Source of the DNA: Clavulina sp. PMI_390
Taxonomy: Eukaryota; Basidiomycota; Agaricomycetes; Cantharellales; Hydnaceae
Reading direction: 5' to 3'
Assembly (NCBI GenBank): GCA_015039315.1
Contig: WIDE01000046.1
Span: forward strand, 184,886-248,885
Length of the DNA: 64,000 nt
The translations under genes and the position numbers were made by a program. Below the pieces are notes generated by a model, which searched no databases, was not told the origin of the DNA, and worked only from the letters and a program-made list of their open reading frames with translations. Shown here in pieces: positions 50,186 through 59,415 of the stretch. Numbering within the stretch: the first letter of the stretch is position 1; every line of letters begins with the position of its first letter.

Positions 50186-50990
50186 ATTACCTCTAAACGG
50201 GGTTCTACAGCTCCCACTACCTTTTTTTCGTGCCATATACTAAGTTATTTATTGCACTACACCAACTTTCCCTCCTGTCATGCTATCGTACACAGTAATT
50301 CTACACTCAAGCATTCCCTTCCTCTCATATGCGTGTTCGACGAACTTTGTCGTGTGCTCACCGAATCATCGTTCATCCACCCGCTCTATGAGTTTTGCCT
50401 CCATTCTGACCAGGGTCTCTAGACCGTGCGCCACACAACCCGCCATTCAGCCGTCCTTTTGGTGAGTTCTATCCCCCGTTCTTTCACTTTTTCTCTTCTT
50501 TCTGTCCCTGGACTTCTCCCCGTCTACGTCCAACGTCCGTAACCATGATGATTCTCGTGGTGTGCCATCCGTGGCACTCGAAGCACGATGGCAGCAACGT
50601 TGCCTCCCTTACTTGGAGTTGTAACCGCTTCGGCTGCGTCACAATCCACATGAGCTTTGGGATGGTTTCGTTGTTGCTCCTCTCACCTTTTTGTGTGACG
50701 AGGTAGTCGCTCTTGAGATATTTTCAATGAGGCCCGATCTGAACACTCGCTATGTCTTTCATATTCTCATTTATTCGGGAGCCCTCGTACTCTTTTGGAC
50801 ACCGTGTAACTGATGGAATGTGTCGGTTTGATAGTTTAGAATCGCATCGATGAAGGAAACATCAGCAGAGTCAGAAAGAACCCTCACTCGCCAACCTCAC
50901 GAATGTATTGACTGTAAGAATGGGCAACCTAATTTTCATCATATTCTTCCATAGAATGACTCCGAAGCTGCAAACCCCTTAGATATGTGA
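50186..50990. other. Intergenic up to assembly gap
   Basis: T/C-rich sequence after TOM7. I see no gene. It ends in an assembly gap, so any inserted-element flank on this side is lost. Confidence 0.4.
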
Positions 50991-51000
50991 NNNNNNNNNN
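50991..51000. other. Assembly gap (10 N)
   Basis: Ten ambiguous bases. The sequence to the right starts exactly at the outer end of the inverted repeat, so the true size of the gap and the left boundary of the element are unknown. Confidence 0.99.
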
Positions 51001-51196
51001 CAGACTCCTACCCAGCCGCTCTGCTCCGTTGCTTGCTCAGTAAGCGGGGCAGGTGAACTTAGTCTAGGTATCCGGGTCGGTGTAAACAAGTGTACATAAG
51101 CGCTTAGGGTAATTTGGGCTCGCTCGCAACTCCGCAGAGCGACTGGCGCAATTCGTGTAGTCGTCTGTTTGTCACGAGGGCGCGCCTCATCCTCGA
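51001..51196 (+). repeat. Left terminal inverted repeat, 196 bp
   Basis: Reverse complement of 56427-56622 over its whole length. It ends 20 bp before the helicase ATG (51217). It may extend further left into the assembly gap. Confidence 0.9.
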
Positions 51197-51216
51197 AACT
51201 CTCCTTTCCGCGTCAT

Positions 51217-53893
51217 ATGCCCTGCCCAACGCGCGTTAACACTGTCTCTAACAACAACGTCACTCCTTCAACTGGTAGAGAGTTAAACGAGACGCAACTA
51301 CGCGCTTTAGTGGAGGCTCAGCTCCCATTCACGGTCCATCTCTGGCAGTTGCACATTGCGTGCGTCCTTCTCGAGAAACAAAAGAAGGTTGTCATATCCA
51401 CAGCTGCTACGGGAGCTGGTAAATCCATCACGTTCTTCCTCCCACTCCTTGCTGGCGAGGATGGTATCACCTTCATCATAGTCCCGCTCACTGTACTCGG
51501 CGAGCAGATGGTCGAGACGGCTAAGTCATATGGAATCACTGCATTCAATGCCAGCAGCGAAAGTCTTCGGGACAAGAAAGAGATGGAGGTGCAGTGCTCC
51601 TGTCAACTTCATAGCTCAGGCGTTTACCTTCTGTCTCAGGAACTCGCGCAGGGCTCCTTTCGTGTGATTGCGATATCGCCCGAGCTCTTGCTCGACCCTC
51701 GCTTCTGGAAGTTATACCAAACTCCGTTGTTCCGTAGGCGTATCTCGCGTATCATCCTTGATGAAGCACACTGTGCAACACTGTGGGGCGAGTCATTCCG
51801 TGCCAAATACCTCGAACTTGGTCGCCTGTACCTGTATCTTGCCCACCATGCCAGTTGGGTGCAGTGGTACCTCACCTCTGCCACCCTTACGCTTAAAGCA
51901 GCATCAAAAGTCCTCGAGACTCTGAGTATGCCCGTCTTGAGTCTTCAGTCATCCACACATCATAGTCATCCTACCCAGCTCATACAACGCTCCAATGATC
52001 GACCCAATCTCCACTATGCAGTCAAGCGAATGAAATACCCTGCGTCATCATACAAGGATCTGGCTGCCCTGTTATGCCCTCACTTCATTCAGCAGGGAGG
52101 TGTGGTGCCGCAAACTATCATCTACACTGAGAGTCGCAAGGAGGCTGAAAATATTGAGCACTACCTCCGAGTCACAGCAGCGGAGAACCACAGGCGTGGA
52201 GAAGTCTCATTTGACTATTCGGAAAGGATTGTTTATGTTCATGCGGGAATGTCAGACCTTCACCGCCAGGAAGCAGCGGTGGGCTTTGCAAATGAGACAA
52301 TCAATATCGTGATCGCAACTGAGGCACTGGGGCTGGTATGTGCTTCTCAGCAGGTTTGGACAGCAGTCTAACCCTTCTCAAACTGTAGGGTATTGATATC
52401 CGGAACGTTGCTGTTGTTGTACAGTATGGGATCGTGACCTCGATTGATACCTTTGCTCAGCGTTCGGGTCGTGGCGGTCGAGTGAAAACCATGCCAGGAT
52501 TGAGCATATGGTATGTGCCAGGCAAGTACTTTGCCGACGAGCAAGCAAAGAAAGCCAAAGCTGCCGCTGCATCTGCAAAGCGACGAAAGACCAACTCAGG
52601 AAACACACCGTTGTCTAATCCCCCAATTGAGGATCCACCTCCTGCTCCCGAAGTGCTTGATGACAACAATGGCGAAGAATATGTTCCTGTTTTGGAACCT
52701 GACCAAGATCACAACACTCTGAACGCGCCCGCAAGCGTCCAGCTCGAGACGCTCCCTGACACTCAGATCACATCGCGAGGGCTGAAGCGCAAGCGGGCTT
52801 CGGCAAAGGACAGTGTTTCACCCGAGGTCAACGCATTCATCAATGCCGACCAGCTAGGTGAGGATGACGAAAGAAAAGGCTGTCGTCGAAAGGTCCTGCA
52901 TAAGCACTACGGTCTGAAGCACATTCGTAAGTCGTCACTGAGTTGTGACGCTCCCACACCTTTGCTCATCCACCTTCTCCCACACCTTCTGCCTAAGGCG
53001 TGCCTCGCAACTGCTGCCCTCACTGCACTCTGCTCGACCCTACTGAAGGGTGCTGTGACCTCTGCACTCCGTCCATAGTCAAGGAGATATTCAGCGGCGC
53101 TCCGTCTCTGCCGAACAGCAAACAACCTCGCGCCGCCAAACTGGATCCTTTTGACTACAGCAAAGATGACACCAAACTACGTTCTCGGCTGACACGATTC
53201 AGATCAAAACGCGTGCATGATCTCCTGCCTCAGGGGATGGCACTTTCCGAGTCTCTCCTCACTCCCCAATGCTTCATGTCCGACACACTCTTGCAGCAGA
53301 TCGTATCGCTAGCACATCACGGGAAGCTCGTAACAAAAGGCGACCTGATATCAAACTTGAAGTGGGGCTGGCGACATCGCTATGCTGATGCGATACTCAA
53401 ACTCGTCCATCGCTCGCACCCGCTGCCCCCACCTCCACCACCTCCTTCCGCCGCTTCATCTATCCCTTCACGCACTCAAGCCAACATCGATCCAGTTGCA
53501 GATGAAGAGAGAGCATCAGGCTCCGCGACTACTCTTGTTACACCAGTGGCTCCTGCTGCACCGAAGCGCCTATATCGATGCTCGTACTGCAAGCAGACTG
53601 GACACTACATGTCAAGCTGTAGTACGTCCTATTCTGCTCCTAGCTGCGAAGAGATGCTCACTAAAACTCCAGAGTCTCCTGGAGCGCCACCAGCCAAACC
53701 AAGAGCGCCACGACAATCTAAGGCGTCTGTGGCAACCGAAACTGGGAATACTCCCATTGCTGGTCACGATGGAGAACTAGTAGATACCCAGGTCTGTACC
53801 ATCCAGAACACCTTCTTCGTCATCTTCTCCCTCTGCAATCGCATCTATGCTTCCTCCTCCGCCCTCGACGTCTTCCACAGCGCTTGCAACTGA
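51217..53893 (+). CDS. RecQ-like DEAH helicase of the mobile element (about 850 aa)
   Basis: SF2 helicase predicted to unwind DNA in an ATP-dependent way. The ATG at 51217 (MPCPTRVNT) is preferred over the TTG at 51169, which lies inside the repeat. Exons 51217-52335, 52389-52926 and 52998-53893 (1119, 538 and 896 nt) keep frame. A fourth, in-frame intron at 53622-53672 is optional. Motif I is STAATGAGKS (about residue 70), motif II LDEAHC, motif III LTSATL; after the first splice ALGL|GIDIRNVAVVVQYG and motif VI QRSGRGGR follow. A basic/acidic linker precedes a Cys cluster (NCCPHCTLLDPTEGCCDLC) like the RecQ zinc-binding region. Then come a helical region, poly-Pro and a CCHC knuckle CSYCKQTGHYMSSC. 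The C-terminus overlaps the convergent DUF6589 gene. Similar RecQ-like proteins include telomere-linked helicases, but nothing subtelomeric is visible here. Confidence 0.88.
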
Positions 53894-56387
53894 CGGATCT
53901 GTTTCCTCCACACTCAGAATGTCATATAGAATCCCATACCCAGTTGCCAATTGATCTGCAATCACTTCAACTGGCTGAGACCCCGCAACTTTCCTCGCTT
54001 CAATGCCAGCTCTGATCCGCTGAGCAAGGAAAGCAATGTCTGCAGCCATATCGGCAGGTGCGTGACGGATAGTGCGAGACCTGATCTCGAAGTTGTCCTC
54101 GATATTTTCGTGGCAACTTCGGAGCAGCTCAATGATCCCCGACTGGCTGAGGATGTGCTCGATTGTCTTGTTTGGGCCGCTCCCTGAATACACTGCCTAC
54201 AGATATCGGTGAGCGCAGACTCGATGGACAGGTGGCATGCTGCTGACCTTGAGATACAGGTTATTCAGCTCAATGACCCAGTCCACTGCGCGAAAGCCGT
54301 CATGACGTCCTGTCGGATTCAGGAGCCAATTGAGCCGGATTGCTCGAGCAAGCTCTGGGGGAAGCGACGAGAGGCGCGTAAGGAAGTCCAACAGGTAAGC
54401 GGCATATTTGTGCTTCCTTGTCGCCTTGAATATGGGTATCCAGTACCAAAGGACGTCCTCCACGGTTCCAACTGCGCCGTGCTTCATTGATACGGCAAGG
54501 ACCTGATAGAGAAGCGCATCACGAACAAACAGTCGGCTGTTCTGTTTCGCTTTCTCCTCGTTCGACAATTTGGCCTCCTCCGTCTCCACCAAACTGCCCG
54601 AGGAATCAGTCTGAGCATCGGCGTCCATGTCAATGTCCGATTCCAACAAGCTCGCATCGGCGCTGAGCGCTGGAGCATGCGCAATATACTCGTTGTATAT
54701 GGCTTTGGCAAGCAGGTCGATCTCCTCGATTTTGAATGTCCGTTCCTCAAGCTCATTGGCCGACAACAAATTGAGGATCTCGCGTGCGTACTCTAGGAGA
54801 TGGGCAAGAAGGGTGTGCTGTAGCCCGTCATGGAGCATCCTGAAAGGTGCGTTTGACTTCAACTTGGCATGATCCTTCGGGTACAGGTGGGCGAAATGCT
54901 GATACACTCCATGCAGGTCTTTCTGCAGCGACTTTGGCTCAAGATAGGTACGCCACACAGCGTTAGCAGCGGCCATCAGCGTGTGAAAGAGACCAGGCGC
55001 CGCTTCGATGTACTCGAACGACTCCCAGTCCGTACGCTCGCGTGCACGCGTCTTGAGAATAGCGCGAACACGCTCAAGCACCCCCAGGTCACCGTGTACC
55101 AAGGTAATCGTGTTCTTTGTGACCTCCTGGTCAATCCCCGTCTGTTCCATCCAGTTCCTGAGTACGCTGATGTTTCCGTCGGTTGTAGAGCACTTCTCGT
55201 TGATGGCAACGACGGGCCGATATGGGGTTCGGACAGCCGGGAGCTGCAGCTTCGAAGGTATGTCTCCCAGCTTCTTGTCCAGTTCCTTTGCGTTTTGGCA
55301 CATGCTGATGAGTAGCTTTTTGATCGACCAGAGCATCGCCGGGACCACCTGACTCTGAGGTCGAGGATTAAGGGAGTCGATTGTAGGCTTTGGAGTGACA
55401 AACTGATTTCTCTGACGTTGTATAGGATAGGGCTTATCGATGGAAGTGCCAGGCCTGGCCATGTCGCTAGCTTCCACGTGAAGTAGTTGGTGCGTAATCC
55501 CAGTTGTTATGCTGGTAAACGACGCTTGATTACTCTGCGTACTTGTGCCGACACCAAGCGAAAAGTCCAAGTTATCCCACCCCAGCGCAGTCAGCAAGCT
55601 CTGACCTAGTTTCTTGAGCAGCAGCGCGGCCTCGCTCTGCGCGGACTGCATCATCAGTCGCTGAGTAGTTTCCGCCACCACAAGTCCAACTCGCGAGCAG
55701 AATTCGTAGACGGAGGAGGGGGTCTGCTTCGACGTCAAGTAAAACCCGCAGGCTACTTGAAAGAGGTTGCATCGCATGTTCATCTGATGTGCGATGATGC
55801 ATATGATCACCACTGCTTTCTGTAGGCTTGGGTTTCAGTATCATGACAACTGAGTGTACCGGAGGCATTACCAGAGGAGCCAGACGTCGCTTTCGCGTCT
55901 GCGGAGGAGTTTGATTGGGAGTTGGGTTTTCAGTGTCGGTGCGACGCTCCGATGTAGACGGTGGAGTCTCATCATGTTCTGCCGCCTCTTCCTCGTCCTT
56001 ATCATCAGGATTGTCTGGTAGTCTACCGAGCAAGGTGTTCATAAGGCCCCACAAAAGGGGCACCCCTTCAGATATCTTCTGGCGCAGGTTCGGTATCGAG
56101 AACGACGCGATCTGATCGGCAGCAAGGTGGCTAGCGTTCGCGTGAAGACCGAATGTTTCTGAGGTAAGGTATCGGACTTCCCCTTGCAATAAACTCGCAG
56201 CTGATGACATGATCCATCTATGACTAGCAGTTCTGAATGTATTGCTCAGTACGGAGAAAATTGGTATCACATCGGTACTTGGGAGTAGCCCAGGATAAGT
56301 TGTAAGGTTGGATAGAAGAAGTGTCACCAGGGTGAGCACAGTGATACCATTGCGCTGCATTGCCCGAAGGCAGTCATCCGGCAACAT
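53777..56387 (-). CDS. DUF6589 protein of the mobile element (835 aa)
   Basis: Three exons, 56387-55872, 55819-54248 and 54196-53777 (516, 1572 and 420 nt), each divisible by three, join in phase 0 to 835 residues. The start MLPDDCLRAMQRNG is 40 bp inside the right repeat. The DUF6589 signature is clear: LTALGWDNLDFSLG near residue 245, ITLVHGDLGVLERV near 400, PGLFHTLMAAANAVWRTYL, HLYPKDHAKLKSN, HTLLAHLLEYAREIL, YWIPIFKATRKHKYAAYLL, AIRLNWLLNPTGRHDGFRAVDW and, after the last splice, AVYSGSGPNKTIEHIL. An acidic C-terminal tail ends the protein. Biochemical function is unknown. The DNxD and HGDLG Asp positions would suit an RNase H-like nuclease (transposase) core, but that is inference. It is convergent with the helicase, with which it may act. 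Confidence 0.85.
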
Positions 56388-56426
56388 GGTCGTAAGTAGA
56401 AGGAACCCAACTTGACCCAGAACGCC

Positions 56427-56622
56427 TCGAGGATGAGGCGCGCCCTCGTGACAAACAGACGACTACACGAATTGCGCCAGTCGCTCTGCGGAGTTGCGAG
56501 CGAGCCCAAATTACCCTAAGCGCTTATGTACACTTGTTTACACCGACCCGGATACCTAGACTAAGTTCACCTGCCCCGCTTACTGAGCAAGCAACGGAGC
56601 AGAGCGGCTGGGTAGGAGTCTG
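56427..56622 (-). repeat. Right terminal inverted repeat, 196 bp
   Basis: Mirror copy of 51001-51196. Divergence starts immediately inward of 56427. The base after 56622 cannot be compared with the left side because of the gap. Confidence 0.9.
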
Positions 56623-57780
56623 CTGCCTTCCGTGGTCGTTTGCTCACTCGATGAACGACAACTTTCACCACCGCTCTGTGTATTGCAAAACTCAATGCAC
56701 ATTCCCCGGCTCAACCGCTGGCGCCAACGCGTCCCTGATGGAAAGAAGCTCTTCAGCAATGACATCCGATCTTGCATCGTCCATGGTGACCGCTGTTCTT
56801 CACGTGAATTTCCGGGACGCGCATATTCGACGTAGAGCGACCAAGACTAACCCCATCGACCCACGGGCCCTTCACCATGATAGACAGAATCAATTTCAGC
56901 ACACCCTCTGTCGCTGGCGTATCAAATCCCTCCTCCTGATCACCTCTTGCCGTGAAGATCCTGCCCTACATTGGTGACATGTGAGTGCAAGTGGGGTGAC
57001 CAGATGAGTGATCATTATGTGCCCTGCCAGCGTGCTCAAACCCTGGTCGTTTCTGCCTCTCTATCATATGCCGATATTCCTATACTATTCCTCCAATCGT
57101 ATTTTACCCTACTGTGTCGATATCCTTGTGTCCTTACACTCGTGCGTGAGTAATAATGATTTCGGTTCAGAGGTGGCAGCCCGTGCACCGGGTGAAACAC
57201 TGAACATATCATTGATTGGACTATTTAATCAAGGGAAAGCTGGGGAGAAAAGAAGAGGAGTGATACGATGGAAAATTAGAATGATCTAAAGGATCGAAAC
57301 ACAGAATAATGAGGTATACAGTGAGTCGCGACATTCATTGGAGCCATGCGCGAATTGCGACGATAGATTTCCGAACTTAGAGATCCCGAGACCAGCTCGA
57401 GCAATCAAGCAAAGGGGTTATCGAGCGTGCGCTGTAGTCGTCGGTGTATGTTTGCGGTGCCTGGAACGGGGACGATGAGGCGGACGGCAGGAAAGGAGTG
57501 TGTGGCTCAGATGAGCAAATGAGAAATATGTCGATCTAAGTGTCTTGCCGGCTAAGCGTCATTGCTGTTTCAGTCGTTGTCGTTTTGGCTGCTATTGCTG
57601 CGTGTCGAGTATACGGTCGGTGAGCGCAAGAGGTGTGCTGGCGCTTTATTGGAGGGACGAGAGGACCGAGCTACCAACTTGGGGTCCTGAAGGGTGGGTA
57701 GCGGACGCGGAAGGGACGGGCAAGATGCAGCAGCTATAATGAGCCGTTAACACAGTTTCAGAGGTGAGGCGAGAGTCCTC
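56623..57780. other. Right flank of the element, no gene seen
   Basis: No recognisable protein, tRNA or repeat. The short ORFs lack any conserved pattern. Confidence 0.4.
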
Positions 57781-59415
57781 TAGGCATCAGAAGCGATCTT
57801 GGGCGGTTTGGAAGGAGAGGATGCAGTCCATTTTGTTTTCGGCTGTGTCGATTGTCACATGTCACACCTCTCCTGCACTTCCAGAAAGAGAGGGAAGAGA
57901 ATGTCAGCACTCGATCAGATCACTCGAATGAGGAGGATCACCGCTCTCGCTTTTGCTCTGTTGCGACGTGTCAACTCTCTTGTCAGCCCATAGGAAGTCT
58001 AGCACCGAAAGGCTGTCAATTTCGATGCACCCCTGGCCTCCCACCTATCCCTTCGCGCCACATATCTCCATCATAACGATAGATCCGTGAAGTCGACGGG
58101 GCTGAGGGAAATCCTGTGACTAATTCGGCCCCCTCTGCCTGAGCCTCGTCACGAGCGCCACCGACTCCTTAGATATCGAGGCCGGCTTGTCCTGCATAGA
58201 GGCACCTTCTTGGCGATGGTCGTACCAGCAGCGTTAGCGGCTAGTACATCATCACCCGCGATAATGCTCCAAACGTCAGCCAAGTCACTGGCCACGGCGG
58301 TGAGCTACATGAGCTCTGCGATGGTGATAGTGTGTACGTCTCTGGCACTGTCACTCGCTCCTTCCTCACCTCATACATGCCGACTATCCCTATGCTATCT
58401 CTCTTCATTACTTTGGCACCGTAGCCTCGCCACCTGTTCTCTCCACATTCACCAATCGCAAATAGCTTTCTCCCCTCCACGCCCGCCGCCCCTATCGCGC
58501 TCGCCGATGGGCCGCAGTTGCAGAAGCTGCATGACTTCTCTGGGAAGTCAAATCGTGAGTTTCATTCTTCGACTCTCCCTACTGCTTTGTTTAATGCTTA
58601 TCATTTCTTGACCCACCATTTCAGTCAAAATATTGCCGACGACTACATACCTCTTATCCGGGAAACACGAGGGATGCTTTCGTCAAATGACGGTCCGTTG
58701 GCCTGATACTCTTGCCATGCTTCTGAGGATCCATTCAATAACTGATTGACTCGGTCTCTTCCTCCATGTCTTATGTCCCGCCCGATCCAGGTTACAACCA
58801 CGGGGCTTCATTCTTGGCGCCTGCGTAGGAGGCATATTTGGATGTTAACTAGATTGTTTCCCATCGCCGGTGGCGCCCATTCTTCCTAATCGACATTCCA
58901 CACGCAATCAGAACAACTGAGCGCACCGATTCTTCACGTTGACAGTGGACCGTCGGACTCGCAGCCCACGCCCTCTCCACCTGGATTCGCTCAGTTGGCT
59001 TTTGCCCAGGTGAGGCCGCTATTCAGTCGGACGGAATCGAGCGATCGAGCTGTTGAATATCGTGTGAAGGGTAAAGGGACTTTTCTTGACTGACGAGATT
59101 CCCTGGTACGTTCTCTATCCTCGTGGCACTCTATTTCGAAACGCAGAAAACTGACAGGTGGAATGGTATGTTCCTCTAGTGTTGCCCGAACGTGTACTCC
59201 TGCCCCCCATGTAACGATCAGGCCCCTCCCCTCTCTGGTCTAGCCGCGAAGGACGAACAACGAACGACGTCACTGCGACCATTCCCATGCGTGATGGCTC
59301 CAACGTCAATGATTAGAACCTTTGCAAAAGCATACTTGTCGGTGTTGCGACCTGGAGTCGTCTGCCCACATCTCGCCTGATGGTGTCAAGCAATATGACG
59401 ACACGCTGCTATCTC
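57781..59415 (+). pseudogene. Decayed glyoxal-oxidase-like (copper radical oxidase) relic A
   Basis: Matches relic B at an offset of about 3.8 kb, including the shared upstream sequence (AGGCATCAGAA at 57782 and 61622, TCACATG-CACA near 57858 and 61695). The coding remnant reads VDGAEGNPVTN, a TGA at 58140-58142, RHLLGDGR, then near 59280 a degraded form of the SAAIPMCGGSN..NDW block. Stops and frameshifts occur throughout, and similarity is lost after about 59415. It is non-functional. It would once have encoded a secreted H2O2-producing oxidase of the AA5_1 type. Confidence 0.6.

Follow-up and report, generated by a model that had tools for sequence, protein, structure and literature searches.

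The founding description of AcademH transposons is said to be that of Kojima in 2020. In the parts of the literature drawn on here, AcademH elements are described as carrying a helicase and producing target-site duplications of 9 or 10 bp, and AcademX elements as producing duplications of 3 or 4 bp (PMC10045372). AcademH is also described as low-copy in Basidiomycota, Ascomycota and Mucoromycota (PMC10799480), and a RecQ helicase is mentioned in Academ transposons, citing Kapitonov and colleagues (PMC3627910). Excerpts of three further papers report that putative non-autonomous Academ and MULE insertions are widespread in Marasmius oreades (PMC8290104), that bivalve Academ elements have a mean length of 5565 bp (PMC10294476), and that Kolobok elements make TTAA duplications, the fungal KolobokH having a RecQ helicase (PMC9587614). 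Here we describe a 5622-nt element at positions 51001..56622 of a 64,000-nt stretch of Clavulina sp. PMI_390 contig WIDE01000046.1 (the window), which carries genes for a RecQ-like helicase and for a protein of the Pfam family DUF6589 between long terminal inverted repeats. The element is very probably a DNA transposon that belongs to AcademH, as far as this class is known here from its descriptions. A sequence-only reading of the window had stated that no described transposon class holds this pair. That statement is in all likelihood wrong, because RecQ-bearing Academ and AcademH elements are already published (PMC3627910, PMC10045372 and PMC10799480, in the parts considered), and the Clavulina elements are probably new members of this class.

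Organization of the element

The left (51001..51196, + strand, terminus CAGACTCCTACCCAGCC) and right (56427..56622, − strand) terminal inverted repeats match over 196 nt without a mismatch. Re-examination of the sequence agrees with the earlier account of perfect arms around two convergent genes with open three-exon frames. Both predicted genes begin just inside the repeats and point at each other. The helicase gene lies on the + strand (exons at 51217..52335, 52389..52926 and 52998..53893) and the DUF6589 gene on the − strand (exons at 55860..56387, 54248..55819 and 53777..54196), and their tails overlap at 53777–53893. Immediately before the left arm, positions 50991..51000 form a scaffold gap of 10 N, so that the arm starts right at the edge of a contig. 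This gap had escaped the sequence-only reading and conceals the left junction and any target-site duplication there. By analogy with the sister copies described below, the right duplication would be expected at 56623..56631 (9 nt).

Recurrence of the gene pair and target-site duplications

The genome yielded three DUF6589 loci from five exon matches (these counts are lower bounds), one in the window (C243) and the others on C236 and C74. At all three, a convergent RecQ-like helicase gene lies on the opposite strand and the pair is enclosed by inverted repeats, so that the adjacency elsewhere to which the sequence-only reading had looked is indeed present within the Clavulina sp. PMI_390 genome. 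The repeats of the sister loci are imperfect, with 84% identity over 171 alignment columns for C236 and 73% over 125 columns (81% over the best 68) for C74. The helicase search gave five genomic matches, consisting of the three paired loci, a 41-residue piece inside the right repeat of the window element, and a helicase on C291. The latter has no DUF6589 match but has a RecQ zinc-binding match, as would be expected of a host RecQ.

The C236 and C74 repeats have 13 and 9 genomic matches, respectively, themselves included. The concern that the repeat might occur only here holds for the 196-nt repeat of the window, for which we found no other copy, a result that speaks against a multi-copy family, and not for the sister repeats, which enclose the same gene pair and are multi-copy. 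Seven of the related copies are two-ended and short (321–1259 nt), as non-autonomous copies are; these lie on C2, C202, C29, C299, C104, C109 and C254. One-ended relatives are found on C262 and C11. A further two-ended copy, on C164, spans 7 kb and has an interior of N.

The two-ended set thus comprises ten copies, namely the seven short ones, C164, C236 and C74. Eight of the ten are flanked by exact target-site duplications at symmetric TA...TA ends, with a length of 9 bp in six copies, 8 bp in C236 and 11 bp in C202; among the seven short copies, the duplication is exact in five (9 bp in four and 11 bp in one). The ends of the sister copies were set at TAG/CTA by the analyst with the flanks in view, and shifting them alters some of the lengths, as asymmetric ends give 9 bp for C236 and up to 11 bp for C164. 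In a control that combined these ends with mismatched flanks (90 pairs), the longest duplication was 3 bp. A tandem copy of the flank also contains the duplicated target of C236, TATCAGCC, without an interruption, and this provides an analogue of the empty site. This target (∼353471–353637) lies within a local tandem duplication with a spacing of 114 nt.

These duplications, the repeats of the sister families and the recurring gene pair support the proposal of a mobile DNA element. The duplication that the sequence-only reading had proposed to look for was recovered in the sister copies, the left side of the window copy being hidden by the gap.

The DUF6589 protein

The DUF6589 protein is modeled with 839 residues from three exons, compared to a partial model of 448 residues in the public record of the same gene (P0009). 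Its main exon matches Pfam DUF6589 with 254.9 bits (E 1.5e-75). Protein searches returned 10 DUF6589 proteins (eight and two more), one of which is the window's own P0009. The predicted fold is RNase H-like, with a predicted local distance difference test score (pLDDT) of 74.6, and resembles the P element and Hermes transposases, with 8–11% identity in the structural alignments. Three conserved acidic residues in the predicted core encoded by exon 2 (Asp258, Asp420 and Glu693) form a candidate catalytic triad, so that the predicted model combines the acidic residues and the fold expected of a DDE transposase of the RNase H type. The predicted transposase fold and the conserved acidic residues lend support to the earlier suggestion that this protein is the candidate strand-cutting enzyme, and a further analysis corroborates it weakly. 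On the strength of the model, the DUF6589 family probably contains the transposase of an AcademH-like element.

The RecQ-like helicase

The helicase model (850 residues, three exons) is identical over its entire length to a public Clavulina sp. PMI_390 protein (P0011). Pfam identifies DEAD and Helicase_C domains; RQC and HRDC are absent from the matches listed in this search. RecQ1 and RecQ5 are among the best solved relatives. Exon 1 contains Walker A, the DEAH motif and a WGESFR stretch, which we take to resemble the aromatic loop of RecQ. Motif VI is located in exon 2, and exon 3 is Cys-rich, its zinc-finger matches being weak and below cut-off. The helicases of all three loci have Walker A, DEAH and motif VI, and in those of C236 and C74 the motifs are split over two reading frames, through introns or damage. 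The best 120 of 224 protein matches consist of the window's own record and 119 proteins with 23–31% identity; among the matches listed, those naming an organism are bacterial, the window's own record aside. Scans of viral and prokaryote contigs, collections not meant for fungal genomes, gave 33 and 47 pattern matches, respectively, and no relative.

Weighing the assignment

Duplications of 9 bp, within the 9–10 bp range stated for AcademH, in six of the ten two-ended copies, a RecQ-type helicase and terminal inverted repeats all fit an AcademH element. Several observations weigh against this assignment or against the proposed role of the DUF6589 protein. The copies on C104 and C254 lack a duplication, the 8- and 11-bp duplications fall outside the AcademH range, and in the window copy the gap conceals the duplication. 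The window repeat has no third copy in the 39.4 Mb assembly, as searched by a method that skips very common words. RecQ-family profiles match the helicase best, yet score below their curated cut-offs. For the DUF6589 protein, a Foldseek search against the PDB gave no match at E ≤ 0.001 (best 9.3e-3) and a second structure model is of low confidence. Furthermore, Glu425, Glu437, Asp261 and Asp689 are conserved equally to the proposed triad, and the profile alignment of the C236 protein did not reach the third acidic residue.

Alternatively, the elements could form a separate, undescribed superfamily that resembles AcademH in its RecQ helicase and ∼9-bp duplications, with DUF6589 as an unrelated transposase. 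This would be consistent with the aberrant duplication lengths, with the lack of any Pfam name tying DUF6589 to Academ, and with our finding DUF6589 named in no paper of the literature searched. However, the descriptions of AcademH or Academ in the parts of those papers considered agree with these elements in the length of the duplications, the RecQ partner, the phylum of the host, the low number of copies and the size, and we regard a separate superfamily as unlikely.

Boundaries of the window copy

The left flank of the window element (50839–50990) recurs without a difference as the opening 152 nt of contig C95, which then diverges; the first 10 kb of C95 show no match to the window beyond these 152 nt. 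As C95 continues differently, the joining of the scaffold across the gap is open to doubt. The identity with C95:1–152 could reflect either a doubtful join or a branch between haplotypes. With the 10-N gap and a flank that also runs into C95, the left junction is unproven. The lack of mismatches between the arms is weak evidence of youth, because a single copy of the repeat may have been used for both arms during assembly. The first 15 positions of the element (CAGACTCCTACCCAG) align without gaps with the left terminus of its C236 sister (TAGTCTCGTACCCAG), with 12 of 15 identical. Since the C236 end is fixed by its duplication, this alignment independently supports the contig edge as the true terminus.

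The right boundary is supported by a paralogous flank. The right flank (56629–58882) resembles C104 at ∼5.3–7.2 kb (− strand), with 80% identity over 377 aligned positions beside the element and 91% over 1413 positions farther out, and this likeness stops 6 nt short of the repeat end. The C104 stretch is a paralogous or allelic copy of the right flank and, beyond the insertion point, its sequence is not that of the element. Upstream of the insertion point, the C104 paralogue has no match to the left flank of the scaffold; this part matches C21 (77%) and another place on C104 (76%), matches that do not settle the true left flank. We found no empty site carrying both flanks of the window copy.

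The gap directly before the left arm, the flank shared with C95 and the repeat without another copy would also be compatible with an assembly artefact, in which a second copy of the right repeat, chimeric or misplaced, stands at the end of a contig as the left arm, and the two genes are ordinary neighbors. The sister loci argue against this, as in C236 and C74 the pair recurs between repeats that are assembled and flanked by duplications, and the contig edge coincides with the terminus predicted by C236. We consider an artefact very improbable and conclude that this is a real, apparently intact mobile DNA element, which may still be active.

Proposed mechanism and implications

We propose that the DUF6589 protein acts as a DDE transposase, with Asp258, Asp420 and Glu693 as its putative catalytic residues in an RNase H-like core and, in the model, a helical insertion preceding the last acidic residue, as in the P element and hAT transposases. 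It would bind the terminal inverted repeats and then cut the ends of the element. Joining of these ends to a target cut in a staggered manner, mostly 9 bp apart, would give rise to the 9-bp duplications. The RecQ-like helicase may serve as an accessory motor, probably unwinding the ends or opening DNA for strand transfer and repair.

The transposon class is already known; the functional assignment of DUF6589, which our results support as a suggestion, is the useful and testable part. It connects a named family listed by Pfam as of unknown function with a probable enzymatic activity and with a mobile element whose ends and duplications are defined. We lean towards the broader view that DUF6589 is a P/hAT-type DDE transposase family and that many of the DUF6589 genes annotated in Agaricomycetes represent transposons, or else transposases that have been domesticated and formerly travelled with a RecQ helicase. 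Annotators can then treat pairs of DUF6589 and RecQ-like genes as candidate transposons. The intact copy offers a two-protein system in which to test whether a DDE transposase makes use of a helicase; if the proposal is true, DDE transposition assisted by a helicase would represent a mode of its own, testable in these low-copy elements.

Comparison with known systems

KolobokH is likewise described as a fungal transposon with a RecQ helicase (PMC9587614, in part), but Kolobok duplications are TTAA, found in none of the eight duplications here, and the Clavulina genes are separate and convergent on opposite strands, such that this assignment is disfavored and scarcely credible.

The P element and hAT transposases (as exemplified by Hermes) are similar to the putative catalytic protein in predicted fold, including the helical insertion. 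They differ from it in the low identity of the structural alignments, and the Clavulina elements differ in their helicase partner and their mostly 9-bp duplications. P element and hAT duplications are 8 bp in length, which is seen in only one of the ten two-ended copies.

Compared to the partial descriptions of AcademH, the Clavulina elements depart in one 8-bp and one 11-bp duplication of the sister copies. They share with AcademH the character of a DNA transposon, a RecQ-type helicase, duplications of ∼9 bp and a low copy number in Basidiomycota, and the length of the window element, 5622 nt, is close to the mean of 5565 bp given for bivalve Academ elements (PMC10294476, in part).
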